From Methanospirillum sp. (GTDB lineage: Archaea; Halobacteriota; Methanomicrobia; Methanomicrobiales; Methanospirillaceae): DNA of 35,830 nucleotides. Positions within the stretch are counted from its first letter, which is position 1, and each line of letters begins with the position of its first letter. Positions 4,108-35,830 of the stretch are shown here, piece by piece. The notes beneath the pieces were generated by a model. That model saw only the letters and a program-made list of their open reading frames with translations. It was not told where the DNA came from and did not search any database. The DNA lies in the NCBI GenBank assembly GCA_012728895.1, contig JAAYEG010000057.1:1-35830 (forward strand), written 5' to 3'. A program made the translations under genes and the position numbers.

Positions 4108-4478
4108 GTGCCGCTGTTCTTTGATGCACATCTGTCGGCCGGCGGCTCTTCCTCGAGGGGCCGGTGCATCCACCTCGAGCCGGTCCGGGGACGTGAGCGA
4201 GACGAGCCACGGCGGGACCGACGCCTGGCTGGTGAGCCTCGTCGCGATCGGCCGATGGTCCTGGCCGTGCCGCCCTCCTCGGCACTCCCGTCGATATGGA
4301 CGTGGACTGGCTGAACGACGACGTCAACGGGAACGGCTGGGAGGACTTCGCGGAAGTCGTGCTGAACTTCAACCAGATGACCTGGATCGCCGGCAAAGAG
4401 CCGCTCGAGGCCTTCGTCTGCAACGGGAACGGCAGGATCGACTTCGCGGACGTCACCTGGCTGTTCAACAACCTCTGA
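4108..4478 (+). pseudogene. Decayed secreted protein: surface-repeat fragment plus dockerin-like domain
   Basis: Positions 4296-4475 encode a full 61-residue copy of the dockerin-like module that ends the neighbouring secreted proteins, from DVDWLNDDVNGNG to the terminal WLFNNL. Upstream, in a different frame near 4190-4245, the translation reads DVSETSHGGTDAWLV. This matches a repeat seen in many archaeal and bacterial surface proteins (GDVSxNHGGxDAWVVK, from memory). The two parts are out of frame, and a stop (TGA at 4233-4235) closes the module's frame upstream, so no intact protein carries them. The module itself has drifted: FAEVVLNF replaces FADVVLYF, and VCNGNG replaces DYNNNG, so the first calcium ligand of loop two is lost. 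It is best read as the remnant of a tagged surface protein, although a short secreted peptide cannot be excluded. Confidence 0.6.
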
Positions 4479-4903: not shown

Positions 4904-7186
4904 ATGATCAGGAATGTACTCCTTGTCCTGCTGCTCGCCTCCGCCGCTGTCGGCGGGACGTGGGCTGCGGAGGTTGAGCTGAGTAAGAACGCGTGGAACC
5001 CGGACGTCGACGGGCGCTACATCGTCTGGGAGGACCACGGCGGAGCGGTCTCACGGATCGCCCTGCACGACACCCGGAACGGGACTACGGTGAAGATCCA
5101 CCCGCCCGCCCGGAGCACCAACCAGATCGAGCCCGCCATCTCCGGGGGGATGATCGTCTTCGTCTCCGTGGAGGAGACCGCCGGAGATGATCGCTACGAG
5201 GTCTGCCTCCACTCGATCTCGGACGGCACGACGAAGGTGATCAGGTCGAACGGCAACGTCGTCAGCGAGCCGGACGTCCACGCCACGCGGGACCGGGTGG
5301 CCGTCGTCTGGACGGAGTACGTCCAGAACGACCCCTACGGGGCGCCGAACAGCGAGATCTGGTTATATACGATCAATGTCGGGGGAACCCTGCCGGTCTC
5401 GCCGAAGGTCTCCCAGGTGAGCGACGGGCTGTACGAGAGCGACCCCCGCATCGACCGCGACTGGATCGTCTGGATGCACAAGACCGAGACCCCTGGCCTG
5501 GACTCCTACCACGGGCCGTACGACGTGTACGCGCGGACGGTACGCAGCGGCACGCCCGTGCTGGTCAGCACCACCACGGCAGGGGAGCGGAACACCTGCC
5601 CCGACGTCTCGAATGACCGCGCCGTCTGGATGGCCGCCCAGGAGATCGACGGCTACGGCTCGCGGGTGCTCTCCTCGAGCCTGCCGCCCGGGGCGGGAGA
5701 ACCGGTCGTCCTCGAGCCGGCCGGATCGGGCCCGTCCGGGGGGGCCACGGGATACGGTGACCCCGCGCTCTCCGGGGACACGCTCGTCTACGTCTACCGC
5801 GACTACGTCTCGGGCGAGCACCGGGTGATGCTTGCCGGGCTCGTGAACGGGGACGAGTATGGTTTGAGCGCGGACGCCGTGGTCGAGTACTTCCCGGTCA
5901 GGTTCGACGGGAGTACCGTGGTCTGGGTGGACGGGCGGTCCGGGACCTGGGACGTCTACATGGCTGCCACGGGGTCGACTCCGGTCACGGGCTGCACCGT
6001 GATCGACGCGCCCGGGTACTACGCCGTCGCGAACGACATCCTGGACAGCGCGTGCCCGGTCGCGATCGATGTCATGTGCTCGGACGTCCTCCTCGACGGC
6101 CAGGGCCACCTGGTCGACGGCCTTGACACGGCCGGGACGGCCGGCATCCGGGTCCAGGGGAGCGACACGGCCCCGATCGCGCGCGTCGCGGTCCGGGACG
6201 TCCGGCTGACGGACTGGGGAACCGGGTTCTCTGGCACCTACTGCAGCGACAGCGCGCTCTCGAACCTCTCGGCCACGAGCGGCGGGCAGGGGATCAGTCT
6301 CTGGATGGAGTGCCACGAGAACGCCCTCGCGAACTGCACGGCCTCGTGGAACAGCGACTCCGGCATCGATCTGGGCGACGACTGCGGCCTGGCCATGACC
6401 GGCTGCACGGTCGAGGAGAACGACGCCGGCGGCGTAATCGCCGGGGAAGCCTGGATCGAGTGCCTCGGCAGCCGGATCGCCGGCAACGGGGCCGGTTACT
6501 ACGGCGGCGGCGGATTCGAGTTCTGGCACGCCGGCGGCGACATCCAAGATACCGTCGTCAGCAACAACCAGGGCGCGGGGATCCTCTTCTTCGGCGACTC
6601 CGCCGGTTTCGGCGCGACGATTACGGGCTGCTCCATCACCGGCAACGACGTCGGGATCGGGGATACGAACTACCCGGGCGGGATGGGCGTGCGGACGATC
6701 TACAACAACGTCCTCAACAACACCCAGAACGTGGAGACGAGCTCCCACTGCACCTGGAACGTCACCGAGCGTGCCGGCCCGAACGTCGTGGGCGGCCCGA
6801 GCATCGGCGGCAACTACTGGGCCCAGCCCGACGGGCTCGGGTTCTCCCAGACGCACGACGATACCGACGGGGACGGGTTCTGCGACCAGATCTACGTCGT
6901 CCTGCCGGCGGACATCACCCCGGAAGCGGTCGACTACCTCCCCCTGGCGGAGGTCGGGCCCCCCGTGCAGCCGTTCCCCGGCACTACCGAGCCACCGCTC
7001 GACCCGGACGCGGACGGCATGTACGATGACGTCAACGGGAACGGCCGGAAGGACTTCGCGGACGTCGTGCTGTACTTCAACCAGATGACCTGGATCGCCG
7101 GGAACGAGCCGCTCGAGGCCTTCGACTATAACAACAACGGCCGGATCGACTTCGCCGACGTCACCTGGCTGTTCAACAACCTCTGA
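4904..7186 (+). CDS. Secreted beta-propeller/beta-helix protein with C-terminal dockerin-like domain
   Basis: The protein has 760 residues and a signal peptide at about 1-21. Residues 30-360 form TolB/YncE-like propeller blades with recurring IVWED, IVWMHK, AVWMAA and VVWVDG strands. Residues 370-680 form a right-handed parallel beta-helix of the NosD/CASH type with repeats such as NCTASWNSDSGID and GCSITGNDVGIG. Residues 700-760 form the dockerin-like module with two 12-residue EF loops (DVNGNGRKDFAD at 709-720, DYNNNGRIDFAD at 741-752) and end in WLFNNL. Combined propeller and NosD proteins are typical surface proteins of Methanomicrobia. A role in adhesion or envelope assembly is inferred; no catalytic residues were recognised. 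The ATG follows TAGGA closely. A T-rich stretch just after the stop is a likely terminator. Confidence 0.9.
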   Translation: MIRNVLLVLLLASAAVGGTWAAEVELSKNAWNPDVDGRYIVWEDHGGAVSRIALHDTRNGTTVKIHPPARSTNQIEPAISGGMIVFVSVEETAGDDRYEVCLHSISDGTTKVIRSNGNVVSEPDVHATRDRVAVVWTEYVQNDPYGAPNSEIWLYTINVGGTLPVSPKVSQVSDGLYESDPRIDRDWIVWMHKTETPGLDSYHGPYDVYARTVRSGTPVLVSTTTAGERNTCPDVSNDRAVWMAAQEIDGYGSRVLSSSLPPGAGEPVVLEPAGSGPSGGATGYGDPALSGDTLVYVYRDYVSGEHRVMLAGLVNGDEYGLSADAVVEYFPVRFDGSTVVWVDGRSGTWDVYMAATGSTPVTGCTVIDAPGYYAVANDILDSACPVAIDVMCSDVLLDGQGHLVDGLDTAGTAGIRVQGSDTAPIARVAVRDVRLTDWGTGFSGTYCSDSALSNLSATSGGQGISLWMECHENALANCTASWNSDSGIDLGDDCGLAMTGCTVEENDAGGVIAGEAWIECLGSRIAGNGAGYYGGGGFEFWHAGGDIQDTVVSNNQGAGILFFGDSAGFGATITGCSITGNDVGIGDTNYPGGMGVRTIYNNVLNNTQNVETSSHCTWNVTERAGPNVVGGPSIGGNYWAQPDGLGFSQTHDDTDGDGFCDQIYVVLPADITPEAVDYLPLAEVGPPVQPFPGTTEPPLDPDADGMYDDVNGNGRKDFADVVLYFNQMTWIAGNEPLEAFDYNNNGRIDFADVTWLFNNL
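7001..7183 (+). repeat. Dockerin-like module, copy in the propeller/beta-helix protein
   Basis: This 61-codon unit is nearly identical over long stretches to the unit at 4296-4475, including about 20 bases beyond the stop codon. That points to recent duplication or gene conversion. Confidence 0.8.
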
Positions 7187-11449: not shown

Positions 11450-13785
11450 GGACTCGGTCTATCGTCCTGATCCTGCTGCTCCTCGGCAGCAGCGTGCCGG
11501 CCTTCGCGGCAGGCGAGACGTACCTCTTCGAGAGGGGATGGGGCGGCCTGGGCACGGGCACGGGCCAGTTCAACTACACCTGGGGGATCGCGGTGGACGG
11601 CAACGCGAACGTCTACGTCGCCGACTTCTACAACCACCGGATCCAGAAGTTCGCGTCGAACGGGACCTTCCTCGCGAAGTGGGGCACCTACGGGTCGGGC
11701 AACGGGCAGCTCAACCACCCGACCAGCGTCGCGGTGGACGGCACGGGGCACGTCTACGTGGCCGACTACTACAACCACCGGATCCAGAAGTTCACCTCGA
11801 CCGGCGCCTTTATCGCGAAATGGGGGGGGATCGGGTCCGCCGATGGGCAGATGACTTTCCCTTACGGCGTCGGCGTCGACCGTGCCGGCAACGTCTACGT
11901 GGCCGACTACTATAACCACCGGGTCCAGAAGTTCAGCCCGACCGGGGCGTTCCTGGCGAAGTGGGGAAGCAGGGGGACCGATGACGGGAAGTTCCAGTTC
12001 CCCTGCGGTGTCGCGGTGGACAGCCACGGCACCGTCTACGTGGCCGACCAGTACAACCACCGGGTCCAGGTCTTCGCCCCGAACGGCACGTTCATCGCGA
12101 AGATGGGCGGCGACGGGGCCGCGGACGGGGATATGCACTACCCGACGCACATCGCGTTCGACGCCGCGGACAACGTCTACGTCTGCGACCACGGGAACCA
12201 CCGGATCCAGAAGTTCACGCCGGCCCGCGTCTTCGTGACGAAATGGGGGACGCGGGGGTCGGCGTGGGGGGAGTTCTACTCCCCGACGAGCGTCGCGCTG
12301 GACGGCGCCGGGACCATCTACGTCGCCGACACGAACAACAACCGGGTCCAGGTGTTCTCGAGGCAGGGGGCGGTCCCCACCCCGAACACCACCCCGACGC
12401 CGAAACCGACGCCGAAACCGACGCCGACTCCGACGCCCGTGCCGCAGGAGCCGTATCCCGCCCCGCACGCGCCTGGGGACGCGATCCGGGCGGAGGACTT
12501 CGATACCGGAGGCGAGGGCGTCGCGTACCACGACCTCGAGCCGGCGAACCTCGGCGGGGCCTACCGCCCGGCGGAGGGGGTCGACATCGAGACGGTGGGT
12601 GGGGTGACGAACGTCGGCTGGATCCGCGCCGGCGAGTGGCTGCGCTACACGGTCGACGCGGTTGCCAACGGGAGCTTCGGGGTGGTCCTCCGCGCCGCGA
12701 ACCCCGACCCGTTCGCGAAGGCCGTCCGGGTCTACCTCGACGGCGTCCCGGCCGGCGAGGTCGTCGTGAATGGCACCGGGGGCTGGGGGGCGTTCGCCGA
12801 GTTCGCCGGGCCGGCCCCGGTAACCGTCTCGAAGGGCCGGCACGTCCTGACTCTCGCCTTCGAGGGCGTGGAACGGCTCAACCTCGACCTGCTCTCCCTC
12901 CCGGTAACCGGACCGACGGTCACCCCGACGCCGACAGTCAGTCCAACGTCGACGGCCGCTCCCACAATCACGGTCACCCCGACACCGACGGCCAACATCA
13001 CGCCGGCGGCATCGTTCGAGGCGAACAGGACCTTCGGCGAGGCACCTTTCGCCGTCGCCTTCAAAGACACGTCGAAGAACGGTCCCACCTCGTGGACATG
13101 GGACTTCGGGGACGGCGTGGGCTCGTCGCAGCAGCACCCCGTCCATCTCTACACGGTCCCCGGCACCTTCACCGCCGGGCTGACGGCGACGAACGCGTAC
13201 GGATCGAACACCTCGGCCCAGGAGATCGTCGTTGTCGCCCGTCTCCCCTACACCCTCCCCATCCCCGCCGACGGCTCGCGCATCCCGCCGAACACCACGG
13301 TCGGGGTCGAGCGCGGTTCGACCCACGGGATCACGGTCGACGCGATGGAGTCCGCGATGGTCCTCCGGAAGAACGGCACGGGAGAGGTGGTGAACGGCTC
13401 GTTCGTTGACGGTCGGATCAGGACCTACACCGACCCCCTCGGGAGGCTGCTCGGGTCCCGGGGGTGGTTGAACCGGTCCTACGAAACCCTCGAGAACGGC
13501 ACGCAGTACGACCTCTACTACGGCACCGACCTGGTCGCGTCGTACACTGCCGTGGAATACCCCGTCCTCGCCGTGCCGGGATGCAACCAGGTGCCCCGGG
13601 ACGGAGACCGGGACGGGCTCTTCGAGGATTTGAACGGGAACGGCCGGCCTGACTTCGCGGACGTCGAGCTGTTCTTCGACCAGATGGCGTGGATCGCGGA
13701 GCACGAGCCGTTCGAGGCCTTCGACTGCAACGCGAACGGGCGGATCGACTTCGCGGACGTCACCTGGCTGTTCAACCATCTCTGA
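11446..13785 (+). CDS. Secreted NHL-propeller, CBM6-like, PKD and dockerin-like protein
   Basis: The product has 779 residues from the GTG at 11446 (a TTG at 11437 would add three). A signal peptide (1-22, ending AFAAG) is followed by six NHL blades at about 28-305, each with the pattern VAVDxxGxVYVADxxNHRIQKF and GTFxAKWG. A Thr-Pro-Lys linker comes next (about 308-335), then a CBM6/CBM35-like jelly roll at about 342-465 with IRAEDFD and GWIRAGEWLRYTV. A second Thr/Pro linker precedes a PKD domain at about 502-590 with SWTWDFGDG and HLYTVPGTF. A region of unknown fold precedes the dockerin-like module at 719-779. The build suggests a cell-surface protein binding carbohydrate and protein partners; no enzyme domain is seen. 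The GGGAG before GTG supports this start. Confidence 0.9.
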   Translation: MRTRSIVLILLLLGSSVPAFAAGETYLFERGWGGLGTGTGQFNYTWGIAVDGNANVYVADFYNHRIQKFASNGTFLAKWGTYGSGNGQLNHPTSVAVDGTGHVYVADYYNHRIQKFTSTGAFIAKWGGIGSADGQMTFPYGVGVDRAGNVYVADYYNHRVQKFSPTGAFLAKWGSRGTDDGKFQFPCGVAVDSHGTVYVADQYNHRVQVFAPNGTFIAKMGGDGAADGDMHYPTHIAFDAADNVYVCDHGNHRIQKFTPARVFVTKWGTRGSAWGEFYSPTSVALDGAGTIYVADTNNNRVQVFSRQGAVPTPNTTPTPKPTPKPTPTPTPVPQEPYPAPHAPGDAIRAEDFDTGGEGVAYHDLEPANLGGAYRPAEGVDIETVGGVTNVGWIRAGEWLRYTVDAVANGSFGVVLRAANPDPFAKAVRVYLDGVPAGEVVVNGTGGWGAFAEFAGPAPVTVSKGRHVLTLAFEGVERLNLDLLSLPVTGPTVTPTPTVSPTSTAAPTITVTPTPTANITPAASFEANRTFGEAPFAVAFKDTSKNGPTSWTWDFGDGVGSSQQHPVHLYTVPGTFTAGLTATNAYGSNTSAQEIVVVARLPYTLPIPADGSRIPPNTTVGVERGSTHGITVDAMESAMVLRKNGTGEVVNGSFVDGRIRTYTDPLGRLLGSRGWLNRSYETLENGTQYDLYYGTDLVASYTAVEYPVLAVPGCNQVPRDGDRDGLFEDLNGNGRPDFADVELFFDQMAWIAEHEPFEAFDCNANGRIDFADVTWLFNHL
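13600..13782 (+). repeat. Dockerin-like module, copy in the NHL protein
   Basis: Loops are DLNGNGRPDFAD and DCNANGRIDFAD, and the end is WLFNHL. It is one of the more diverged intact copies, with FFDQMAWIAEHEP in the linker between loops. Confidence 0.75.
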
Positions 13786-13872: not shown

Positions 13873-15378
13873 ATGCAGTCCCGAATCATCATATACCTCC
13901 TTGCCGCCGCGGCCCTTCTCGCGGCGCTCGGCGCGTGCCCCGCCATGGCGTCGCCGGACGACGTCACCTCCGGGCCGGGGGGCGAATACGCGGCCCACCG
14001 ACTGATCGTCACCTTCTCCCCGGTCGCCGTGGACCGCGCCGACCTCGTGCTCCTTGCCCACACCGGCGCCGGCGCGGTGGTCTCGCGGGACCTCGGCCCG
14101 CTCGGCCTCCCCGGCCGGCAGGTCGTCACCCTCCCCGATGGCGCCGACCTCGAGGAGGCGGTGGCGCGCTACCGCGCGGACCCGTCCGTTCTCCGCGTCG
14201 AGCGGGACTGGGTCGTCCGGCTCGACCGCACGCCGAACGACCCGGGATACGCCTCGCTCTGGGGCCTGCCGAAGATCGCCGCCCCGGCCGCTTGGGACCG
14301 GACGACCGGCGGAACCGGGGTCGTCGTCGCGGTGATCGACACAGGGGTCGACGCGGCGCACCCCGACCTCGCGCCGAACGTCTGGACGAACCCCGGCGAG
14401 GTGCCGGGCAACGGCCTGGACGACGACGCGAACGGCTACGTCGACGACGTCCACGGCTGGGACTTCCGTAACGGGGACCCGGTCCCGGACGACGCCTACG
14501 GCCACGGCACCCACTGCGCGGGCACGATCGGAGCGGCCGGCGACAACGGGATAGGCATCGCCGGCGCCGCCTGGACGGTCCGGGTGATGCCGCTCAAGTA
14601 CATGCAGGGCAACGACTGCGGCTTCGTCAGCATCGCTGCGGAGGCGATCCTGTACGCGAACCGGATGGGCGCGGACGTCATCTCCTGCTCGTGGTACGAG
14701 CCGGAGAGCCCGCTCATCCGCGACGCGATCGCGGCGAGCCCGGCCCTGGTGGTCTGCTCCGCCGGGAACGAGGGCAGGGACACGGACGCGACGCCCCAGT
14801 ACCCCGCGTGCTACCCGCTCGACCAGGTCATCTCGGTCGCGGCGACGGACCCGGCGGACGCCATGGCCCCGTTCTCGAACTACGGGGCGACCTCGGTCGA
14901 CCTGGGCGCGCCGGGGGTCTCGATCTACTCGGCGATGCCCGGCGGGGGCTACGGCTGGATGTCGGGCACCTCGATGGCCGCGCCCCACGTGGCGGGGGTG
15001 GCGGCGCTGGCCCTCTCTCTCGACCCGTCGCTCTCGACCGCCGAACTCCGGCGGGCCCTGCTCGAGGGCGCCGACCCCGTCGCGTCGCTCGCCGGCCGGT
15101 CCGTCTCGGGGGGGCGGCTCAATGCATCGAGGACGCTCGCGCTCGCCGCCCCGCCCGTCCCCGCCGTGCCGCCGTCGACGCTGTCACCGACGGACACCGA
15201 CACCGACGGGCTGTACGACGACGTGAACGGGAACGGCCGGGAGGACTTCGCGGACGTGGTGCTCTACTTCAACCAGATGACCTGGATCGCCGGCAACGAG
15301 CCCGTTGCCGCATTCGACTACAACGAGAACGGCCGGATCGACTTCGCGGACGTCACCTGGCTCTTCAACAACCTTTAG
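13873..15378 (+). CDS. Secreted subtilisin-like serine protease with dockerin-like tag
   Basis: This 501-residue S8 peptidase has a complete catalytic triad: D156 in VAVIDTGVD, H211 in YGHGTHCAG and S367 in SGTSMAAPHVAG, with oxyanion N299 in SAGNEG. A signal peptide (1-26) and an I9-like propeptide (about 30-115, ending in RVERDWVVRL) precede the catalytic domain, so it should be secreted as a zymogen and mature outside the cell. Residues 441-501 are the dockerin-like module (DVNGNGREDFAD, DYNENGRIDFAD, WLFNNL), which presumably docks the protease to a partner on the surface. The ATG at 13873 has GGAG 5 nt before it; an earlier ATG at 13819 would hide the signal peptide. The gene follows the NHL gene by 87 nt on the same strand and may be cotranscribed. 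Confidence 0.92.
   Translation: MQSRIIIYLLAAAALLAALGACPAMASPDDVTSGPGGEYAAHRLIVTFSPVAVDRADLVLLAHTGAGAVVSRDLGPLGLPGRQVVTLPDGADLEEAVARYRADPSVLRVERDWVVRLDRTPNDPGYASLWGLPKIAAPAAWDRTTGGTGVVVAVIDTGVDAAHPDLAPNVWTNPGEVPGNGLDDDANGYVDDVHGWDFRNGDPVPDDAYGHGTHCAGTIGAAGDNGIGIAGAAWTVRVMPLKYMQGNDCGFVSIAAEAILYANRMGADVISCSWYEPESPLIRDAIAASPALVVCSAGNEGRDTDATPQYPACYPLDQVISVAATDPADAMAPFSNYGATSVDLGAPGVSIYSAMPGGGYGWMSGTSMAAPHVAGVAALALSLDPSLSTAELRRALLEGADPVASLAGRSVSGGRLNASRTLALAAPPVPAVPPSTLSPTDTDTDGLYDDVNGNGREDFADVVLYFNQMTWIAGNEPVAAFDYNENGRIDFADVTWLFNNL
15193..15375 (+). repeat. Dockerin-like module, copy in the subtilase
   Basis: Both EF loops keep D/N ligands at positions 1, 3, 5, 9 and 12 and the glycine at 6. It is preceded by the acidic run DTDTDGLYD, which could form a further calcium site. 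Confidence 0.8.
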
Positions 15379-15714: not shown

Positions 15715-17796
15715 ATGAAGGTGCTGCTGGTCCCGATCATCCTGCTCCTCCTGGTCGCCTGCCAGCCGGTTGCAGGGCTCGACAATCCGGTCCCCGTCCC
15801 GCCGAACGCACAGGCGCCCACCGACCCGGACGGCGACGGGAAGTTCGAAGACCTCAACGGCAACCTCCGGCAGGACTTCGCGGACGTCGTCCTGTACTTC
15901 AACCAGATGACCTGGATCGCGACGAACCAGCCGGTGAGCCTGTTCGACTTCAACGGCAACGGCCGGATCGACTTCGCCGACGTCGTCTCCCTCTTCAACG
16001 ACCTGGGGAGCAGCCCGCCACAGGCACGTGTCATCATCTCCGGAACGGTCGCGCCGTCGGACGAGGACCGGGTCCTCAGGGGCGACGGGGTCAACCTGAC
16101 GGTCCCGGGCGGCGCCCTGAACCAGACCTCCGCCGTCCGCGTCGCGACCGTCGCCAGTCCCCCGGCGCCGCCGGAGGGGACGTCCAACCTGACGGTCTAC
16201 GACGTGACGGTCGGCACCCAGGTCCGGTTCATGCCCGGGCTGGTGATCGAGATCCCGTACACGCCCGCCATGATCCCCCCCGGGAAGAGCCCCGCCAGGG
16301 TACTCCAGGGGATCCGGTGGGACGAGGAGACCGGGGCGTGGCGCGAGATCCCGACCGCCGTGGACACGTCCCGCAGCGTCGTGGTGCTCGAGACGGACCA
16401 CCTCTGCGTCGCCGGGTACACCGCGAAACTCGCGCCGCCGCCGATGACCGAGATCTACAGCCCGCCGTTCGTCATCCACTTCGACCCCTCCGATGATGCC
16501 GCGATCGCCGCGGCCTGGAAGGGATGGGGGAACATGACCACGGCCTATGAACTGGCATATTATGTGAAATACGCCCTCGATGACGCCTACGACCTCCACG
16601 TGACGAATCATGGGTTCAAGAAGCCGGTCCCCTCGCGGTTCAGCCTCGACAACTACATCCATGTCTATGTCGGTGACTACTACGAGAGCGAATGGCACCA
16701 GTTCACCAAGACGATCACGGTCAGCCGGGAACCATTTCTCCGTGGCCCGGGGGCTGTGGAAAGACTCTTCGAGGAGATGAAGCACGAGCACTTCCACGCG
16801 GTGCAGAACGCGTACGTCTCGACGGCCTGGATGCACTTCAACCGCTGGTGGACCGAGGCCACGGCCGAGTACGCCGCGACCGGCCTGTATACAGGGGAAA
16901 CAAGCCCCTCGTTTCCGCTCGACGGCGCCTTCTTTTCCGAGCCGCTCGACACCGTTAACGGAAAACACGAGTACCAGGCCGCCCACTTTGTCGATACACT
17001 TGTGTTTGGAGGCGATGAGTTCCGATCGGTGTGGGAGACCACGGTCTCAGCCTCAAATGTCTTCAGTGGCATCAGGGATCATTGTGAGGCGAGAGGGACA
17101 TCGCTCGGGGCCGTCTACGAGGACCTGATGGCCCATTCCCAGCTCCTGGAGCTGGTATGGGCGGGCGATACCGGGTCCTACCTGGTCCGCAAGTCGGTCC
17201 TTGACGGGGCCCTGGATCTGGCCGAAACGAACGAGATCTCGTGGTCATTGATAGCTATTGGAGAGGGCACCGTCTCGACCGCCTTCAGGGTGAGTACCAC
17301 GGAGGACTCGGTGACACTGCTCGAGACGCTGGAGAGCGGCGAGTCGACGCTGCCGGGCGACTGCCACGTGACCCGGTACCACGTGCGGCCGTCCGGGTGG
17401 CACTCGACCGAGCACTTGACATCTTTCAGTACCCATTCTGCGCGCGACGGCGATACCATCGTCTATACGATCGCTACCGGGTTCGATACCTTCATCGACG
17501 CGATCATCCTGACCACGCCGGAGGCCACGATCGAACCAGAATCGATCGAGGTGCCTGAGGGTGCGACGGTCCAATACACCGTCTCCATCGAGAACATACC
17601 GTCCGGTACCCCGGTACAGGTCGTCGACTTGAACGGGAAAGTCCTGGCCTCGGGGACTGGGCCGTGTTCTTTGCAGTTCTCGGAAGAGTTCCCGAACCGG
17701 GGATTGTATGGCCGTGAGTACAGGGCGATGACGGCAGATGGGAGATGGGGCAAAAAGTTGACCACATGGGTTAAGGTCATCGAGATTTTTTCGTAA
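15715..17796 (+). CDS. Lipoprotein with N-terminal dockerin-like domain and HEXXH metallopeptidase-like domain
   Basis: The product has 693 residues. The signal sequence ends in LLLVAC, a lipobox with Cys16, so it is probably lipid-anchored outside the cell. Residues 37-97 are the dockerin-like module, here at the N-terminus; its first loop is DLNGNLRQDFAD, with the usual glycine at position 6 replaced by Leu. Residues 105-235 form a ZU5-like beta domain (VAPSDEDRV, NLTVPGGAL). The core has the zinc motif HEHFH at 357-361 and E381 in WWTEATAEY, matching the gluzincin layout in which a downstream Glu is the third ligand. A C-terminal Ig-like domain covers about 600-693 (EPESIEVPEGATVQYTV). A surface metallopeptidase is inferred; the substrate is unknown. 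A T-run follows the gene. The third quarter (about 16540-17300) is less GC-rich than the N-terminal part. Confidence 0.85.
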   Translation: MKVLLVPIILLLLVACQPVAGLDNPVPVPPNAQAPTDPDGDGKFEDLNGNLRQDFADVVLYFNQMTWIATNQPVSLFDFNGNGRIDFADVVSLFNDLGSSPPQARVIISGTVAPSDEDRVLRGDGVNLTVPGGALNQTSAVRVATVASPPAPPEGTSNLTVYDVTVGTQVRFMPGLVIEIPYTPAMIPPGKSPARVLQGIRWDEETGAWREIPTAVDTSRSVVVLETDHLCVAGYTAKLAPPPMTEIYSPPFVIHFDPSDDAAIAAAWKGWGNMTTAYELAYYVKYALDDAYDLHVTNHGFKKPVPSRFSLDNYIHVYVGDYYESEWHQFTKTITVSREPFLRGPGAVERLFEEMKHEHFHAVQNAYVSTAWMHFNRWWTEATAEYAATGLYTGETSPSFPLDGAFFSEPLDTVNGKHEYQAAHFVDTLVFGGDEFRSVWETTVSASNVFSGIRDHCEARGTSLGAVYEDLMAHSQLLELVWAGDTGSYLVRKSVLDGALDLAETNEISWSLIAIGEGTVSTAFRVSTTEDSVTLLETLESGESTLPGDCHVTRYHVRPSGWHSTEHLTSFSTHSARDGDTIVYTIATGFDTFIDAIILTTPEATIEPESIEVPEGATVQYTVSIENIPSGTPVQVVDLNGKVLASGTGPCSLQFSEEFPNRGLYGREYRAMTADGRWGKKLTTWVKVIEIFS
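15823..16005 (+). repeat. Dockerin-like module at an N-terminal position
   Basis: This is the only intact copy in the window that is not at the C-terminus. It ends SLFNDL instead of WLFNNL and continues directly into the next domain. Confidence 0.75.
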
Positions 17797-23274: not shown

Positions 23275-25242
23275 ATGCGCCATCCCCTGCTCTTCGTCCT
23301 CCTCGCCTGCCTGCTCCTGCTGCCGCTCGCTGCGGCGGCCTTGCCGCCGGTCTTGACCGACCGCGCCCCCGTACCGCCAAACAGCACCGTCGGATCGCTG
23401 GAGGGGACCCGGGGCAACGACAAGCTCTCGACCGACCTCGTCCGGCTGGTCGAGCCGTCCGCGCGCCTCCCGGGCCAGTCCCGGGCCGACCTCGCCCGGA
23501 GCCTCCACGGGCGCGGTGCGTACCGGGGCTCTCTCGATCCCGCCGACGCAGGCGAGGTCTACGTCTACGTCTCGCTCGAGGAGGGAGCCGCGACCTCCCA
23601 GGTCGACCGGCTCGCGACCGTCGTCGCCCGCGACGAGGCGCGGGGGCTCGTCTCGGCATGGGTCCCCGAGAAGCAGCTCCTCCCGCTCTCGGCCCAGCCC
23701 CGGGTCCGCTCGGTCCGGACGGTGAACCCCGGCGTCGTGGGTACCGGTTCCCTCACGAGCGAGGGTGACGCCCCCCTCAGGGCTGATCTGTTCCGCGCGG
23801 CAACCGGGTGGTCCGGGGCGGGGATGAAGGTGGGTGTCATCTCCGACGGCGTCAATACCTGGACCGCGGCCCGGGACTCGGGCGACCTGCCCGCCGATTT
23901 CCATGTCCTCTCGGATATGTATGACGGTGACGAGGGGACGGCCATGGCCGAGATCGTCCACGACATCGCCCCGGGCGCCTCGATCTATTTTCACGATGCG
24001 GGCGGCGCCGTGGACCACCTCCTCTTCAACCAGGCGATCACCGCGCTCGCCAACGCGGGTTGCCGGGTGATCGTGGACGACGTCTCCTGGCTCGACACCC
24101 CGCACTTCGAGGACGGGATCATCGCCCAGACCGTCGCAGGGGTGATCGCCTCGAAGGGGCTCGTCTACGTGGGCAACGCGGGCAACTTCGCCCGGCAGCA
24201 CTACCAGGGGCAGTTCCGGGACCAGGGGGGCAGCCTCGCGGGGTGGCACGACTTCCGGACCGGCGGGACCGGCCAGTACACGCAGGTGTACGCCAACCTC
24301 CCCCCGGGCGGACATGCCGGCGTCTTCCTCCAGTGGGACGACCGTTTCGGTCACTCGGGAAACGATTACAACCTCTACCTCTGCACGATGGACGGGACGA
24401 TTCTGGCCTCGTCCATGGACGTTCAGAACGGGAACGACGATCCGCTCGAGGTGGCCGGGTTCACGAACGAGGGCGCTCAGGCCCTGGACGTCGTGGTCTG
24501 GGTGAAGAAGACCGCGGGGGAAGCGCGCGAGCTCGAGGCGTATATCACCGCGAGCAACGGCGCGTGGGTCTACACGGAGAACATCGTCGCCGCCGACTCG
24601 ATCACGGGGAACCACGTGGTACCGGACGAGATCGCGGTCGCTGCGGCCGACGTCGCGAGCCCCTCGACACTCGAGGGCTTCTCGTCGCACGGTCCCGCCA
24701 CCATCCGCTGGCCCGCTCCCGGGGTCCGGCAGAAGCCGGACGTCGCCGGCCCCGATGGCGGCGTGATCAGCGGGGCCGGGGGCTGGGGATCCTGGGACGG
24801 CCTGGCCTACCGCTTCTATGGCACGAGCGCCTCGGCACCGCACGTCGCGGCGCTCGCCGCCCTCGTCTGGAGCGGGAAGCCGAACGCCACCGCGGCGGAG
24901 GTCCGCGAGGCCCTGCTCGAGACGGCGCAGGACCGCGGGCCGTTGGGCTGGGACGCGGGATGGGGGTTCGGCTGGCCCGACGCGACCGGTTTTGCCGAGC
25001 GGCTCGGGGCCACGCCGTCCGTGCGGGCCGTGCCCGGCGGGGTTGGCCTCCCGACGGACACGGACGCCGACGGGCTGTTCGATGACGTGAACGGCAACGG
25101 GCGGAAGGACTTCGCCGATGTCGTGCTGTTCTTCAACCAGATGACCTGGATCGCGGAGAACGAGCCGGTGGCAGCGTTCGACGACAACGGCAATGGCCGG
25201 ATCGACTTCGCGGACGTGGTCTGGCTCTTCAACCACCTCTGA
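23275..25242 (+). CDS. Secreted subtilase-like protein with Glu at the catalytic His position and a dockerin-like tag
   Basis: The product has 655 residues with a signal peptide (1-22). The fold is subtilase-like: D191 in VGVISDGVN, and S518 in GTSASAPHVAALAALVW. Where typical S8 enzymes have HGTxVAG, this protein has DEGTAMAEIVHDIAPGA, with E220 at the His position. The Ser-Glu-Asp set recalls sedolisins (S53), but their ExxxD pattern is absent. A beta-sandwich-like insert (about 305-440) splits the catalytic domain. The dockerin-like module is at 595-655 (DVNGNGRKDFAD, DDNGNGRIDFAD, WLFNHL). It could be an active peptidase of a variant class or an inactive binding protein. The ATG at 23275 has GGTGAT 4 nt before it; an ATG at 23239 lies too close to the TATA box. 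Confidence 0.88.
   Translation: MRHPLLFVLLACLLLLPLAAAALPPVLTDRAPVPPNSTVGSLEGTRGNDKLSTDLVRLVEPSARLPGQSRADLARSLHGRGAYRGSLDPADAGEVYVYVSLEEGAATSQVDRLATVVARDEARGLVSAWVPEKQLLPLSAQPRVRSVRTVNPGVVGTGSLTSEGDAPLRADLFRAATGWSGAGMKVGVISDGVNTWTAARDSGDLPADFHVLSDMYDGDEGTAMAEIVHDIAPGASIYFHDAGGAVDHLLFNQAITALANAGCRVIVDDVSWLDTPHFEDGIIAQTVAGVIASKGLVYVGNAGNFARQHYQGQFRDQGGSLAGWHDFRTGGTGQYTQVYANLPPGGHAGVFLQWDDRFGHSGNDYNLYLCTMDGTILASSMDVQNGNDDPLEVAGFTNEGAQALDVVVWVKKTAGEARELEAYITASNGAWVYTENIVAADSITGNHVVPDEIAVAAADVASPSTLEGFSSHGPATIRWPAPGVRQKPDVAGPDGGVISGAGGWGSWDGLAYRFYGTSASAPHVAALAALVWSGKPNATAAEVREALLETAQDRGPLGWDAGWGFGWPDATGFAERLGATPSVRAVPGGVGLPTDTDADGLFDDVNGNGRKDFADVVLFFNQMTWIAENEPVAAFDDNGNGRIDFADVVWLFNHL
25057..25239 (+). 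repeat. Dockerin-like module, copy in the second subtilase
   Basis: Both loops are intact. It is preceded by DTDADGLFD and ends WLFNHL like the copy in the NHL protein. Confidence 0.8.
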
Positions 25243-30328: not shown

Positions 30329-31315
30329 TCACTTCTCGAGATGGATCTCACTCAGGTAGATGACGCTCCCGTTCGGGTTCTCGTTTCGTGAACTGACCCA
30401 CACGAAACCGCCGATCGTATGGCTCAGGTCCCTGCCCGCGAGGTCTATCGTGTACTGTTGCCATTCTGTCGATAACGTCTGCATCCCGGTGCTCTGGACT
30501 GGTTGCAGCGAATCGGGGAATTCTCCCGTGATACCCCCGATCTTGAACTCGGCCCTTTCACCGCCCTTCTGGCCCCGTGCCCAGACGGTGAGGCGGGTGA
30601 AACCGGTCAGGTCGTATCCCAAAGGATAATCTCCCCAGTTGCTGTCCGGGAACTGCCAGTAGATGCCGGCCCATCCAGCGCCGTTGCTCTTCTTCGCTGA
30701 ATATCGAATCTCGATGGCGGATTTTTCTTCACCATGCGGTGGGACAGCATTGGAAACCGGCTCGTATGCGATATCACCGTGATCTCCCATCCAGCCGGAC
30801 GGGAAGTAGTAATCAGAAATATCGAGGGTCCTCATGGCCTCGAACGTGCCTGGATCTCCCCCGGGAATTGTTGAATTGGAAATATTGGAGTACTCGCCGC
30901 CTTTAGGGGCTATCTGGATATTGACACTGGCCGTGTGTTGCTTGCCATCCTGCCCTGTTCCGATAAACTCCACTCTGTGACTGCCCATCGATACCTCGGA
31001 ATCGAGTATTATATGGGCCGTCGAGCCGTATGCAGGAACTGGTCTGACAGTCAAGGGCTCAAAGTAGACAGTGATACCGGGGAGAGAAACTACGCTGAGA
31101 CTCACTTCCTTATCATACCCCCCCTCATTTGCCACGATAACTGTCACCTGCGCTTTCTCACCGGGCGCAAATTGCCCGGCTAGGGGTCGGGGTTGTAACG
31201 AAAAATCGGGTTCGGGAAAAACATCGTGAATTAGACCAGGTCCAAATATTAGGGTAATAACTGCAATTACCGCCGCGATCCCCCCGCCCTTTAGCCATGA
31301 TTTCAAGCTTCCCAT
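30329..31315 (-). CDS. Membrane-anchored protein with Ig-like and carbohydrate-binding-type domains
   Basis: The product has 328 residues. An N-terminal helix (about 12-30) acts as an uncleaved signal anchor. Residues 38-135 form an Ig-like domain (FAPGEKAQVTVIVANEGG). Residues 165-328 form a beta-sandwich domain shared with the proteins at 31331-32095 and 33793-35166. Landmarks are FPSGWMGDHGDI, then GWAGIYWQFPDSNWG, then FTRLTVWARGQKGGERAEFKIGG and an end in VIYLSEIHLEK. That domain resembles CBM11/CIA30-type jelly rolls that bind glycans, by pattern only. It is the second gene of an operon with the lipoprotein gene, 15 nt downstream of its stop, with GAGGTG before the ATG. GC content is lower than in the first 30 kb. 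Confidence 0.82.
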   Translation of the reverse strand: MGSLKSWLKGGGIAAVIAVITLIFGPGLIHDVFPEPDFSLQPRPLAGQFAPGEKAQVTVIVANEGGYDKEVSLSVVSLPGITVYFEPLTVRPVPAYGSTAHIILDSEVSMGSHRVEFIGTGQDGKQHTASVNIQIAPKGGEYSNISNSTIPGGDPGTFEAMRTLDISDYYFPSGWMGDHGDIAYEPVSNAVPPHGEEKSAIEIRYSAKKSNGAGWAGIYWQFPDSNWGDYPLGYDLTGFTRLTVWARGQKGGERAEFKIGGITGEFPDSLQPVQSTGMQTLSTEWQQYTIDLAGRDLSHTIGGFVWVSSRNENPNGSVIYLSEIHLEK

Positions 31316-31330
31316 AAAGATCCCCGCACC

Positions 31331-32095
31331 TCATTCATAGTAGATATCGTCAAGATAGATGGTGCAGCCCGAGGGGTTTTGCGCGGCCGCACTGACCCAG
31401 CAGAATCCGCCCATGACCCTGCTCAGATCCGCCCCCGTCAGAGCGATCGAGTGCTCCTCCCATTCTGTCGAGAGCGTCAGCACTCCCGTGGTGAGGAATG
31501 GGAAGAGCGAATCCCGGTACGTGCCGTCGACTCCACCGACCTTGAATTCGACTTTTTCGCCGCCCACGGCGCCTTTTACCCAGAACGTAAGATGGGTATA
31601 TTCCGAGAGATCCCGTCCGTCATCGAAGGTGCCCCAGTTGTTGTCGGGGTAGAGCCAGTAGATACCCGCCCATCCCATTCCACTCGTTTTTTCTGCCGAG
31701 TAATGGATCTTTATTGCATCGGGGCCCGAGTGCGCAGAGTCGGCGGAATTCGCGGCGTACTCGATATCGTTCGTGTCGCCCATCCAGCCACTCGGATAAA
31801 AGAGGGAACTCATGTCCGCTCGAGAGGTCCCTGACGGGGTCTGAGAGGGCGTGGAAGGCGTTGTGACCGCGTCCGTGGTGACCGCCGTTACGACCGTCGA
31901 TGTTTCCGCAGGGGGTGCCGTTGTCTGTTGGACGGTCGTGACGGTGGTTGGAAGACCGGCAGTTGTCGAGGATGTGGACGCAGGTGTCGATGTTGGTGCC
32001 GGCATCCCTTGGTGATCTGTACAACCGCAAACCATGATGCTCATCACGACGACGAGTGCGATGAACACCAATGAGGACATCGTGTGCCCTGACAT
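31331..32095 (-). CDS. Lipoprotein with carbohydrate-binding-type domain
   Basis: The product has 254 residues. The signal sequence ends in MVCGC, giving a lipobox with Cys25, followed by a long Thr/Ser-rich linker (about 33-95) of the kind that spans an archaeal cell wall and is often glycosylated. Residues 100-254 form the same beta-sandwich domain as in the downstream gene, with FYPSGWMGDTNDI, GWAGIYWLYPDNNWG and the terminal IYLDDIYYE. No catalytic pattern is visible, so a glycan-binding role on the outer face of the membrane is inferred. The ATG is nearly leaderless relative to a strong TATA box. The gene is divergent from the GH17 gene, consistent with shared function. Confidence 0.85.
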   Translation of the reverse strand: MSGHTMSSLVFIALVVVMSIMVCGCTDHQGMPAPTSTPASTSSTTAGLPTTVTTVQQTTAPPAETSTVVTAVTTDAVTTPSTPSQTPSGTSRADMSSLFYPSGWMGDTNDIEYAANSADSAHSGPDAIKIHYSAEKTSGMGWAGIYWLYPDNNWGTFDDGRDLSEYTHLTFWVKGAVGGEKVEFKVGGVDGTYRDSLFPFLTTGVLTLSTEWEEHSIALTGADLSRVMGGFCWVSAAAQNPSGCTIYLDDIYYE

Positions 32096-32116
32096 AAAGC
32101 TGTATCATTGACAATA

Positions 32117-32128
32117 GTATATAAAATA
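32117..32128 (-). promoter_or_regulatory. Strong TATA box for the lipoprotein operon
   Basis: On the minus strand the element reads TATTTTATATAC, close to the archaeal consensus. It is centred about 27 nt before the ATG region at 32095. Confidence 0.6.
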
Positions 32129-32447
32129 CACAGGTTTGTGTTTTTTTGGGGGGTGATCACAGCGGTTTTTTCCGGTTTATCGCCTCTTCCTGCCGATCTG
32201 GTTCGTCCGGAAGAGACACATCAGCGCGTGACTGCCGTGATCAGGTGGACAGATCAAACTGGTTTCATGAACATGCAGGAAACAGAAGGTTCAGATCCGC
32301 GGAGAGGCGAAAGAAAGCGCAGGACCTCCCCTGCTCATCTGCGTGGGAGCCGATAATCGAGGCGATGATACCAGGAACGGCATGCAGAGGAAGTGAGATT
32401 TCCCCGGAAACCCCCCGAACACGGTCGTTCTGGAAGGAGAAATGGCA

Positions 32448-32455
32448 GATATTAT
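32448..32455 (+). promoter_or_regulatory. TATA box for the GH17 gene
   Basis: GATATTAT is centred 28 nt before the ATG at 32480, indicating a leaderless transcript. Confidence 0.55.
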
Positions 32456-32479
32456 CATCTCTTTCGCCAATTTTGTCGC

Positions 32480-33550
32480 ATGATCGATCTGATCCGACCG
32501 ATCAGGAGTCTTCTTCTGGTAGTCGCGCTTTTTCTCGCTATCCTGGTCGTCGCCTGCGTCACGGTTCCCGGCCCCGCGACAGAGGAGTTGGATGAAGAGG
32601 GTGCACTGCACCTTTCAGGCCTCTGCTTCGGCCCGTACCTGGACGGCCAGAGCCCGAGTCTGACCGGGCCGCTACCGCCTGAACAGATCCGTGAACTGCT
32701 TGCCGTCATCGCGAACTCGACCGACTCGGTCCGCTCGTACGGGAACGATAACGGGCTCGATGCCATCGGCCGATACTCGCACGAGATCGGAAAGAAGGCT
32801 GCGATCGGGGCGTGGCTCAGCCGTAACAGGACGTTAAACGAGCAACAGATCGACACCCTTATCCAGATGGGACAGTATGGGGAGGCGGACGTCCTCATCG
32901 TCGGAAGCGAGACGTTGCTCCGCGCCGACCTCACGAAAGCCGAGCTGCTCGGATACATCGAACGGGTCAAAAAAGCGGTCCCCGGCGTCCCGGTCACCAC
33001 GGCCGAGACCTACGGCATCTACCTCCACAACCCCGAGTTGTTCACGGCCGTCGACCAGGTCTATGTCCACATCCATCCATACTGGGATGGAGTCGGGGTC
33101 GACACCGCCGTCGACACCGTGGACGAAGCCTACTCCAGTCTCCTTCAGCGTGCCGGTTCCAGGCCCGTGGTGATCGCGGAAACCGGATGGCCGAGCGCCG
33201 GGGAACCGAACGGAGCCGCCGTCCCGTCCATGGAGAACGCGGAACAATACCTCCGCGCGTTCACTGCCTGGGCGGATCGGGAACAGGTCTCCTACTTCTA
33301 CTTCGAGGCCTTCGATGAGGCCTGGAAAAAAGACAGCGAGGGGGAAGTTGGGGCGAACTGGGGCCTCTGGAATCATGATGGTCAGCCCAAGTACGGATTG
33401 CTCGGTGGACGAACCACTGGGGTGACCCCCATGTCGGGCTCATCGTTCACCAGGACGACGGGGGGAATTCCAAAGATGACGATCTCCGGCAGGACGTTCG
33501 TGGCAATCGGGCCGCTGCCCACGTCGCTGGAGACAAGCCGGAAATGGTGA
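32480..33550 (+). CDS. GH17-family beta-1,3-glucanase-like lipoprotein
   Basis: From the ATG at 32480 the product has 356 residues. The hydrophobic leader ends in LVVAC (Cys26), a lipobox. The TIM-barrel domain covers about 43-309 and begins LSGLCFGPYLDGQSP, as in fungal Scw/Bgl2-type GH17 proteins. The two catalytic glutamates can be placed: E144 in VGSETLLR, where the family has VGNE (acid/base), and E234 in AETGWPSAG (nucleophile). YFYFEAFDEAWK closes the substrate site. GH17 enzymes hydrolyse or remodel beta-1,3-glucans, or extend them as transglycosylases. A surface-bound glucan-modifying enzyme is inferred. Residues 311-356 are an odd Thr/Ser-rich tail that may reflect a late frameshift. 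The TATA spacing fixes the start; an ATG at 32393 lies upstream of the promoter. Confidence 0.88.
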   Translation: MIDLIRPIRSLLLVVALFLAILVVACVTVPGPATEELDEEGALHLSGLCFGPYLDGQSPSLTGPLPPEQIRELLAVIANSTDSVRSYGNDNGLDAIGRYSHEIGKKAAIGAWLSRNRTLNEQQIDTLIQMGQYGEADVLIVGSETLLRADLTKAELLGYIERVKKAVPGVPVTTAETYGIYLHNPELFTAVDQVYVHIHPYWDGVGVDTAVDTVDEAYSSLLQRAGSRPVVIAETGWPSAGEPNGAAVPSMENAEQYLRAFTAWADREQVSYFYFEAFDEAWKKDSEGEVGANWGLWNHDGQPKYGLLGGRTTGVTPMSGSSFTRTTGGIPKMTISGRTFVAIGPLPTSLETSRKW

Positions 33551-33739
33551 ATCGCCCTGCCTGTGGGTCGGTGGGCCGGTGGGCCGGTCTGACCTCTCCG
33601 AGACCGGAGCTGGAGCGTGGACGGGCATCCCTGCCGGCGGACCCTTCGGAGCCTGTATCGCTCGGCAGGTGCGGCAGGGGCTTATATGAGAAAAGGCAAC
33701 GTGAGGACGGATAGCGCGGGGATCCCGGGCATTTTTTTA

Positions 33740-33749
33740 GGTATACAAT
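33740..33749 (+). promoter_or_regulatory. TATA box for the secreted protein at 33793
   Basis: GGTATACAAT would start transcription near 33771. A second AT-rich element, CTTTATTTT at 33752, is an alternative. Either makes the ATG at 33748 an unlikely start. Confidence 0.45.
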
Positions 33750-33792
33750 GCCTTTATTTTCATCCAGACTATACCAGTATTTCGGTGATCTC

Positions 33793-35166
33793 TTGAATCG
33801 AGCACTTCCGATCCTGATCCTTTCACTCCTCATCGCAACCCCGGCAATCGCCTACGGTTATTCTGTCCAGGCCGGCATCTCTTCCAGTATCTACCAGGGA
33901 ACCGCAACCTACGACCAGGCCCTCGCGTACTACGAAGCCGGCGGGCAGGCCTGGAGCCAGGCCTGGGGGGCGAGCGAGGTCGGAAAGATCCGACAGCACC
34001 TCATCACGTCGAAGACCGCGTACACGAACTGCCATGCCATTGCGACCGCGCTCGACGACCCCGCGAACGGAGCGAATATCGCCCTTTTGAAGGCGATATC
34101 CACTGCGTACATCGACCTGGCCGACGCCGCGCTCGCGATGTACGACGGGGCCGACGTCTACACAGCGGGGCGTGGTCAGATTGCGGCGGGAACCTTCGCG
34201 GATGCAGCTGCCTCGTTCCAGGATGCTGACGAGAAGTTCACCTCTTCGAAGACGTTCTTTTCCCGTGCGACGACCGGGCTCCAGTCAGTCTCGTACGCCG
34301 GCACCGAGTTCGGCGATGGAACGGCCTACACGTCTGCCATCGTCCCGATCCTGAATGCAAAGGGGATGTACATGGGCGAGTTCGCAGCGTACGCCCGAGG
34401 ATGGCAACACACGGCGCTGGCGTACGGAGCCAGCGCAAGTGGCGATCGGACGACTTTCGTCAGAGAGGCTGCCCAAGCATTGGATGCCTTCGACGAACTG
34501 CGCACCTCCCCCAGCTTCGGCAGTGATGCTGCGAATAATTACGAGATTCTCGCGGCACTCATCCCACCAGGCGAAATCATTCCGTTAAAACCGACCGATG
34601 ATCAGACAGTTACAACGACCCCGACTCCTACGCCGACGGCAACCCCCACACCGACAACGGAACCCATCGATTCCTCGAGAATCGATGTGACCACCCATTT
34701 CATCCCGAGTGGCTGGATGGGTGACTATCCGGACATCACCTACATCGCGAGTGATACCTCAAATCCTCACTCCGGCAGCGATTCGATAAAAATTGTATAT
34801 TCTGCTGCCGGTTCGAGAGGAAATGGATGGGGCGGTATCTACTGGCTATACCCTGAAAACAACTGGGGATCGGTGAACGAGGGTCGGGACTTATCGGGCT
34901 GTTCCCGGGTAACATTCTGGGCTCGGGGAGAGCAGGGTGGCGAAAAAGCAGAGTTCAAGGTCGGCGGCGTGACAGGCACGTACCCGGATTCACTTTCCCT
35001 CCGTTCGACTGGTGTGGTCGAACTGTCAGACCGCTGGAAAGAGTTCTCAATCAACATCGACGGGGCCGATCTGAGTCACGTGATCGGGGGATTCTGCTGG
35101 GTAACAAACGAAGATGAGAATCCGACAGGATGCAAAATCTACCTGGACGATATCTACTATTCCTGA
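33793..35166 (+). CDS. Secreted helical-domain protein with carbohydrate-binding-type domain
   Basis: A TTG at 33793 preceded by GGTGAT gives a 457-residue product with a clean signal peptide (about 1-21, ending TPAIAYG). An ATG at 33748 would add 15 residues but overlaps the promoter. Residues 35-262 are the Ala-rich helical domain paralogous to that of the first secreted protein in the window (AWSQAWGAS, DLADAALAMYDGAD, EFGDGTAYT). A Thr-Pro linker follows (about 273-290), then at about 295-457 the beta-sandwich domain shared with the two proteins at 30329-32095 (IPSGWMGDYPDI, GWGGIYWLYPENNWG, terminal IYLDDIYYS). It therefore links an unknown helical module to the glycan-binding-type domain of the GH17 cassette. 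Surface location is inferred; function is unknown. Confidence 0.85.
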   Translation: MNRALPILILSLLIATPAIAYGYSVQAGISSSIYQGTATYDQALAYYEAGGQAWSQAWGASEVGKIRQHLITSKTAYTNCHAIATALDDPANGANIALLKAISTAYIDLADAALAMYDGADVYTAGRGQIAAGTFADAAASFQDADEKFTSSKTFFSRATTGLQSVSYAGTEFGDGTAYTSAIVPILNAKGMYMGEFAAYARGWQHTALAYGASASGDRTTFVREAAQALDAFDELRTSPSFGSDAANNYEILAALIPPGEIIPLKPTDDQTVTTTPTPTPTATPTPTTEPIDSSRIDVTTHFIPSGWMGDYPDITYIASDTSNPHSGSDSIKIVYSAAGSRGNGWGGIYWLYPENNWGSVNEGRDLSGCSRVTFWARGEQGGEKAEFKVGGVTGTYPDSLSLRSTGVVELSDRWKEFSINIDGADLSHVIGGFCWVTNEDENPTGCKIYLDDIYYS

Positions 35167-35370: not shown

Positions 35371-35830
35371 GGGGTAGTGTCTCAGAATTGCTGTAATTTC
35401 CTCGAACCCGGAATCCGTGAATCTGCATCACTCCTCCATCGACAAATACCTTTTTCCTGTGACCCACTCCTCATTGATGTCCCTGAGGATCGATCCCGCC
35501 GATCGCAGGAGCGCGTGCTCCGAAGGAAACGCTCCCATCACGCGGGTTCTCCTCTTGAGTTCCTTGTTGATCCGTTCCATGCCGTTGGTCGTCCGGATAC
35601 GGTTCCAGTGCTCCTTTGGAAAAGCCGTGTAATTCTGGAGCCAGGGCAGAAACCGTTCAATCGTTGTTGCTGCTCTCGTGTATCCTCGTCCAGCGAGGTC
35701 ATCAGAGAATAGCGACAAACCCCAGCTCACCTTTATCCACTCTTCGATCGATCTTTCTGGATGAGCACGTTCGGGAACTTTTTTCTCCACCAGGAGTATG
35801 CGTCCATCGCCGCCCGTGGTGACCCTCTCA
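35371..35830 (-). mobile_element. IS256-family insertion sequence, one end
   Basis: The element contains the C-terminal part of a mutator-type transposase and runs past the right edge. Its left boundary is placed at about 35371, where GGGGTAGTGTCTCAGAATTG begins. This resembles terminal repeats of the family, but the matching right end is not in the window, so the boundary is provisional. Confidence 0.6.
35428..35830 (-). CDS. IS256-family transposase, C-terminal part
   Basis: The frame is open from the window edge to a TGA at 35428-35430, giving 133 residues; the N-terminus with the first catalytic aspartates lies outside. The family's C-terminal signature is clear: FPKEHWNRIRTTNGMERINK, then ELKRRTRVMGAFPSEHALLR, then EEWVTGKRYLSMEE. 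This matches the mutator-type RTTNxxERxNxExKRRTRVxxxFP block, which carries the last glutamate of the DDE triad (in the MERINKE segment). The reading frame is uninterrupted in the visible part, so the copy may be intact. It acts on DNA in the cytoplasm by cut-and-paste or copy-out transposition. Confidence 0.9.
   Translation of the reverse strand, partial: ERVTTGGDGRILLVEKKVPERAHPERSIEEWIKVSWGLSLFSDDLAGRGYTRAATTIERFLPWLQNYTAFPKEHWNRIRTTNGMERINKELKRRTRVMGAFPSEHALLRSAGSILRDINEEWVTGKRYLSMEE

Follow-up and report, generated by a model that had tools for sequence, protein, structure and literature searches.

The stretch of DNA that we analysed (hereafter the window: 35,830 nucleotides of Methanospirillum sp., contig JAAYEG010000057.1) carries near its end four open reading frames, P0001 to P0004, all of them present at 30329-35166 as an earlier note on this DNA had claimed. 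Two are on the reverse strand: P0001 (30329..31315, 328 aa), with an N-terminal transmembrane anchor, an Ig-like region and a C-terminal CBM-like domain (30332-30841), and P0002 (31331..32095, 254 aa), in which a lipoprotein signal with the lipobox VCGC and an S/T/P linker precede a second copy of this domain (31334-31834). The other two are on the forward strand: P0003 (32393..33550), a GH17 lipoprotein whose catalytic domain extends from about 32612 to 33410 (on the basis of Pfam PF00332, PDB 4wtp/4wtr and an archaeal alignment), and P0004 (33748..35166, 472 aa), composed of a signal peptide, a helical module (33859-34563), a TPTPT linker and the third CBM-like domain (34669-35163). At the contig end lies the C-terminal fragment of an IS256/Mutator-type transposase (35428..35829, reverse strand; Pfam PF00872 and NCBIfam IS256). 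The gap between P0001 and P0002 is 15 bp and a TATA-like TTTATA is found at -30 of P0002, which fits a single transcript diverging from the GH17 gene. For P0003, the ATG at 32480 is a more probable start than the GTG at 32393, because a signal sequence and a lipobox (VVAC) come straight after it. Judging from these signals and anchors, the proteins of the locus would be located at the cell surface.

The assignment of P0003 to GH17 is well founded. It matches Pfam PF00332 with an E-value of 7e-16 (59.1 bits, against a curated cut-off of 28.2), and its closest solved structure is 4wtp, a beta-1,3-glucanosyltransferase (E 6e-29), with which both active-site glutamates can be aligned. The first, in the motif VGSET (codon 32909..32911, forward strand), is the expected catalytic acid/base, and the second, in AETGWPS (33179..33181, forward strand), the expected nucleophile; both are invariant in nine archaeal GH17 sequences, and 4wtp and 4wtr differ at the latter (E to A). 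P0003 thus shares the GH17 fold family and both catalytic glutamates with RmBgt17A (PDB 4wtp/4wtr), 6fcg and MlGH17B, but differs from them in being an archaeal lipoprotein of distant sequence. Some members of GH17 act by transfer instead of hydrolysis, for instance MlGH17B (PMC11005184) and, among the solved structures, 4wtp. P0003 itself has no binding domain, and no dockerin was found on it, so that it does not qualify as an enzyme of the cellulosome (cohesin-dockerin) type. Its last 45 residues or so (33412-33550), past the catalytic domain, have no likeness to relatives and are probably a read-through. The reverse strand is open too between 33408 and 33550, and this segment is possibly a recombination scar at which a C-terminal domain was lost; we did not retain the reverse-strand reading of the tail, as this frame is short and has no identification.

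The claim that the three other proteins end in one and the same domain is borne out: the copies of P0001, P0002 and P0004 are C-terminal, about 160 aa long and 50-60% identical. Their alignment (about 167 columns) has a mean column identity of 71%, far above chance, and the other two copies match that of P0002 with E-values of 3e-63 and 9e-55; no further copy was found in the host genome. Neither Pfam nor NCBIfam has an entry for this domain, the scores for CBM_11, CBM30 and CBM_4_9 all being below threshold. For CBM30 and CBM11 they are 15.4 and 13.5 bits for a Pfam cut-off of 27, and a single member of the 72 examined reaches an E-value of 0.01 for CBM_11. The sequence has no meaningful match among PDB sequences either. 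The fold is more informative. An AlphaFold model of the P0002 copy, built with 72 relatives (pLDDT 96.6), was compared with the PDB by Foldseek, and the matches are nearly all carbohydrate-binding modules. CBM30 comes first (E 5e-8, TM 0.63-0.68), as expected for a jelly-roll CBM fold, at least on the predicted model, followed by CBM11 in complex with beta-1,3-1,4-glucan, CBM4, CBM29, CBM16 and the laminarin-binding X584. Taken together, CBM30 (1wmx, 1wzx, 2c24) and CBM11 (1v0a, 6r3m) are the best fold matches (E 5e-8 and 2e-6, TM 0.51-0.68), whereas in sequence the domain is only 12-19% identical to them and under the Pfam cut-offs. We therefore call it CBM-like, by predicted fold, and place it in neither family; the model thus agrees with the suggestion of the earlier note that the domain is of a glycan-binding type.

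How widely is this domain distributed? The GTDB species genomes were scanned for it: 267 places were confirmed, of which 79 loci were kept, mostly in Omnitrophota and Elusimicrobiota/Endomicrobia, with others in Methanoperedens, Syntrophoarchaeum and Methanophagales. The bacterial proteins are mostly small and secreted, with one or two copies of the domain, and nine copies in IMG/VR, likewise small and secreted, added no further information. Some bacterial copies carry an OmpA-type end (L022, L023, L027 and L042, in Elusimicrobia, Caldiserica, Clostridia and Endomicrobia MAGs), confirmed by Pfam in L042 and read by eye in the three others; such an end could serve to attach a glycan-binding domain to the cell wall. 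Among archaea, one copy is joined to GH26 and others to long regions without a Pfam match, which by eye appear helical-barrel enzyme-like. By tblastn, none of the 79 loci has a GH17 in the vicinity of the domain, and in 30 domain-bearing genomes GH17 is absent from 28, the two matches including a weak one.

These observations lend some weight to an alternative that we consider possible, yet rather unlikely, namely that the domain proteins serve as adhesins that bind another surface sugar, as may be the case for their small secreted relatives in bacteria, and that the GH17 is next to them by chance, within a composite island. The 28 genomes without GH17 are in its favour, as are the enzyme-free single or tandem domains of Omnitrophota and the OmpA fusions of Elusimicrobia-type genomes; the archaeal copies joined to GH26 and to other long regions mean that a ligand other than beta-1,3-glucan is conceivable. 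The GC3 of the GH17 gene (0.77) is moreover above that of its neighbours (0.61-0.68). What stands against this alternative is the situation in Ca. Syntrophoarchaeum. One MAG of this group encodes a 654-aa protein (L126) in which a GH17 (38% identical to that of the window) precedes the domain (43%); upstream of the fusion gene, and divergent from it, lies a gene for a homologue of the N-terminal half of P0001. The same MAG also holds a protein with an Ig-like region and the domain, that is, with the layout of P0001 (L007); the N-terminal part of P0001 is 34-38% identical to proteins of L007 and L126. In the family of this MAG, a second genome encodes a fusion of GH17 and the domain that is 797 aa long (L131), and both genomes are Halobacteriota outside the class of the host.

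The two fusions therefore share both domains with the window, and L126 also a divergent P0001-like gene as neighbour; they differ from it in that enzyme and domain are fused rather than carried by separate proteins, and in their GC content (41-44%). In 394 genomes of the phylum, GH17 occurs in five, the domain in 13 and both in three (Fisher P 2.7e-4, or 5e-3 without the host), with the reservation that both fusion genomes are of the same family and the events are hence not independent. The expectation that domain and GH17 would occur together elsewhere thus held in two other archaeal genomes, where the fusion is direct, and failed in 28 of 30 domain-bearing genomes; the complete lack of co-occurrence that would have spoken against the note is not what we found. 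We consider the pairing of GH17 with the domain supported in archaea, and their fusion in distant archaea suggests that the two work together. A comparable arrangement has been described for VvGH17 of Vibrio vulnificus, whose C-terminal glucan-binding domain (about 150 aa, beta-sheet) is unclassified (PMC9026390); it resembles the archaeal fusions, by description, in linking GH17 to a glucan-binding domain, but there the binding domain is on the enzyme, whereas in the window it is on three other proteins.

The idea that GH17 would in itself be a novelty in archaea has to be abandoned: three species of the host genus have GH17, and so do two further genomes, Methanosarcina-like to judge by their size, GC and PKD repeats. 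In the former (the host's second copy, L089 7368-8855, and two sister species, L113 9464-11002 and L114 8293-10038) the enzyme has a dockerin-like end and common gene surroundings. These native GH17 (G000 C79, G221, G223) are about 47% identical to P0003 in the catalytic domain, but differ from it by the dockerin-like C-terminus, a GC content of 73%, conserved neighbours in the sister species and the lack of a CBM-like copy beside the gene. It is the set of GH17 plus domain that is unusual.

This set has probably been acquired horizontally. The host is an archaeon, as the note had it (mcrA is present in the genome), and its kinship, with 232 genomes and 40 genera in the class and a phylum shared with Syntrophoarchaeum, would fit Methanomicrobiales. 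Its sampled contigs have 60-73% GC; the locus genes have 54-62% GC and a GC3 of 0.61-0.77, against a GC3 of 0.83-0.94 in nine out of ten ORFs that precede them in the window. The change is a sharp step at about 30 kb, and we favour acquisition because this lower-GC island adjoins the IS256-type transposase fragment; in addition, the domain was found in none of the sister species. As to the donor of the GH17, a 10-row tree does not place the window copy firmly. The claim of an archaeal system is upheld for the pairing of GH17 and domain, but the locus looks acquired rather than like an established system of this lineage. A phage nature of the high-GC first 30 kb was also considered and rejected, the genes scanned there including chromosomal types and the sampled host contigs being high in GC too.

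The same GC step, and the fact that the closest relatives of the domain are in other taxa, could also mean that the contig is chimeric, its last 5.5 kb coming from another organism and having been wrongly joined to a high-GC methanogen. We hold this to be very improbable. The transposase fragment has 12 other partial matches in the genome, on other contigs too, and the helical module of P0004 (about 230 aa) was found, within the class, in no genus but that of the host, whose genome has 12 copies of it; a genus-restricted module in the hybrid P0004 argues against a chimera, and suggests that a domain from outside was combined with a local kit of proteins. Proteins bearing the module are secreted and have many different partners. 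Copies are seen in the window at 33859-34563 and 523-1179 and in L146-L165, the partners, as read by eye, being SGNH/GDSL hydrolase, beta-helix, cohesin-like, subtilase-like, PKD and solute-binding parts, with S/T/P linkers. The structure model of the module (pLDDT 92.7) has no match in the PDB at E <= 0.001, the best being the S-layer protein SbsC at 0.03.

The reading that we put forward, and to which we give about an even chance, is that of a horizontally acquired cell-surface set for handling glucan, made of a tethered GH17 and three partners holding the same glycan. The lipoprotein-tethered GH17 would cleave or transglycosylate a beta-1,3-type glucan outside the cell, and the CBM30/CBM11-like beta-sandwich module, present on three separate proteins, would hold the glycan on which it acts; P0002 would be anchored by its lipid, P0001 by its transmembrane segment and P0004 through the helical module typical of the host genus. 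Enzyme and module, one protein in Syntrophoarchaeum-type archaea, are here divided, the module being on partner proteins. That the GH17 and the three domains have a common ligand is what we infer from this arrangement. Counting against the surface set are the many domain carriers without GH17, the lack of a binding domain on P0003 and its damaged-looking tail.

One may also imagine a nutritional or predatory system, by which the archaeon degrades algal, fungal or bacterial beta-glucan and feeds on the sugars or exposes partner cells, the more so as GH17 with CBMs is one laminarin-degrading arrangement of marine bacteria (PMC9026390, PMC13188888). This we regard as quite improbable for a host that carries mcrA. 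Methanogens of this kind are not known as sugar consumers; a partial scan of the window genes found neither a sugar transporter nor a further glucanase, and nothing like the SusC/SusD-type uptake with several glucanases of the Bacteroidota laminarin locus was recognised in the four-gene locus. Because the host is a methanogen, a role of the surface set in matrix building, remodelling or attachment is more likely than one in feeding.

If this is correct, a surface glucan enzyme in a methanogen would matter for understanding how methanogens form biofilms and consortia or become part of them. The domain seems to represent a carbohydrate-binding family that Pfam and NCBIfam do not list and whose hundreds of members come from lineages with few cultures; its fold-based function is directly testable, and the GH17 fusion in other archaea provides a concrete guess for the ligand. 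A much broader picture can be drawn, which we offer as speculation and hold to be unlikely: a new and wide CBM family (Omnitrophota, Elusimicrobiota, several archaeal groups), surface glucan remodelling with GH17 in archaea, movement of these genes between methanogens, hydrocarbon-oxidising archaea and bacteria, and matrices of beta-1,3-glucan type as a common adhesive in anaerobic consortia.

Two minor observations may be added. The predatory Ca. Velamenicoccus archaeovorus (L065, NZ_CP019384.1) encodes a secreted protein in which the domain occurs twice, as is common in Omnitrophota; this protein is a possible attachment factor. Finally, the use of dockerins is extensive in this methanogen genus: the window has at least six dockerin-like C-terminal repeats (4287-4475, 6995-7183, 13591-13782, 15187-15375, 15817-16005 and 25048-25239), and another is found on the second GH17 of the genome (L089 8664-8855). 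ANME, archaea close to methanogens, carry dockerin and cohesin proteins as well (PMC9012536).
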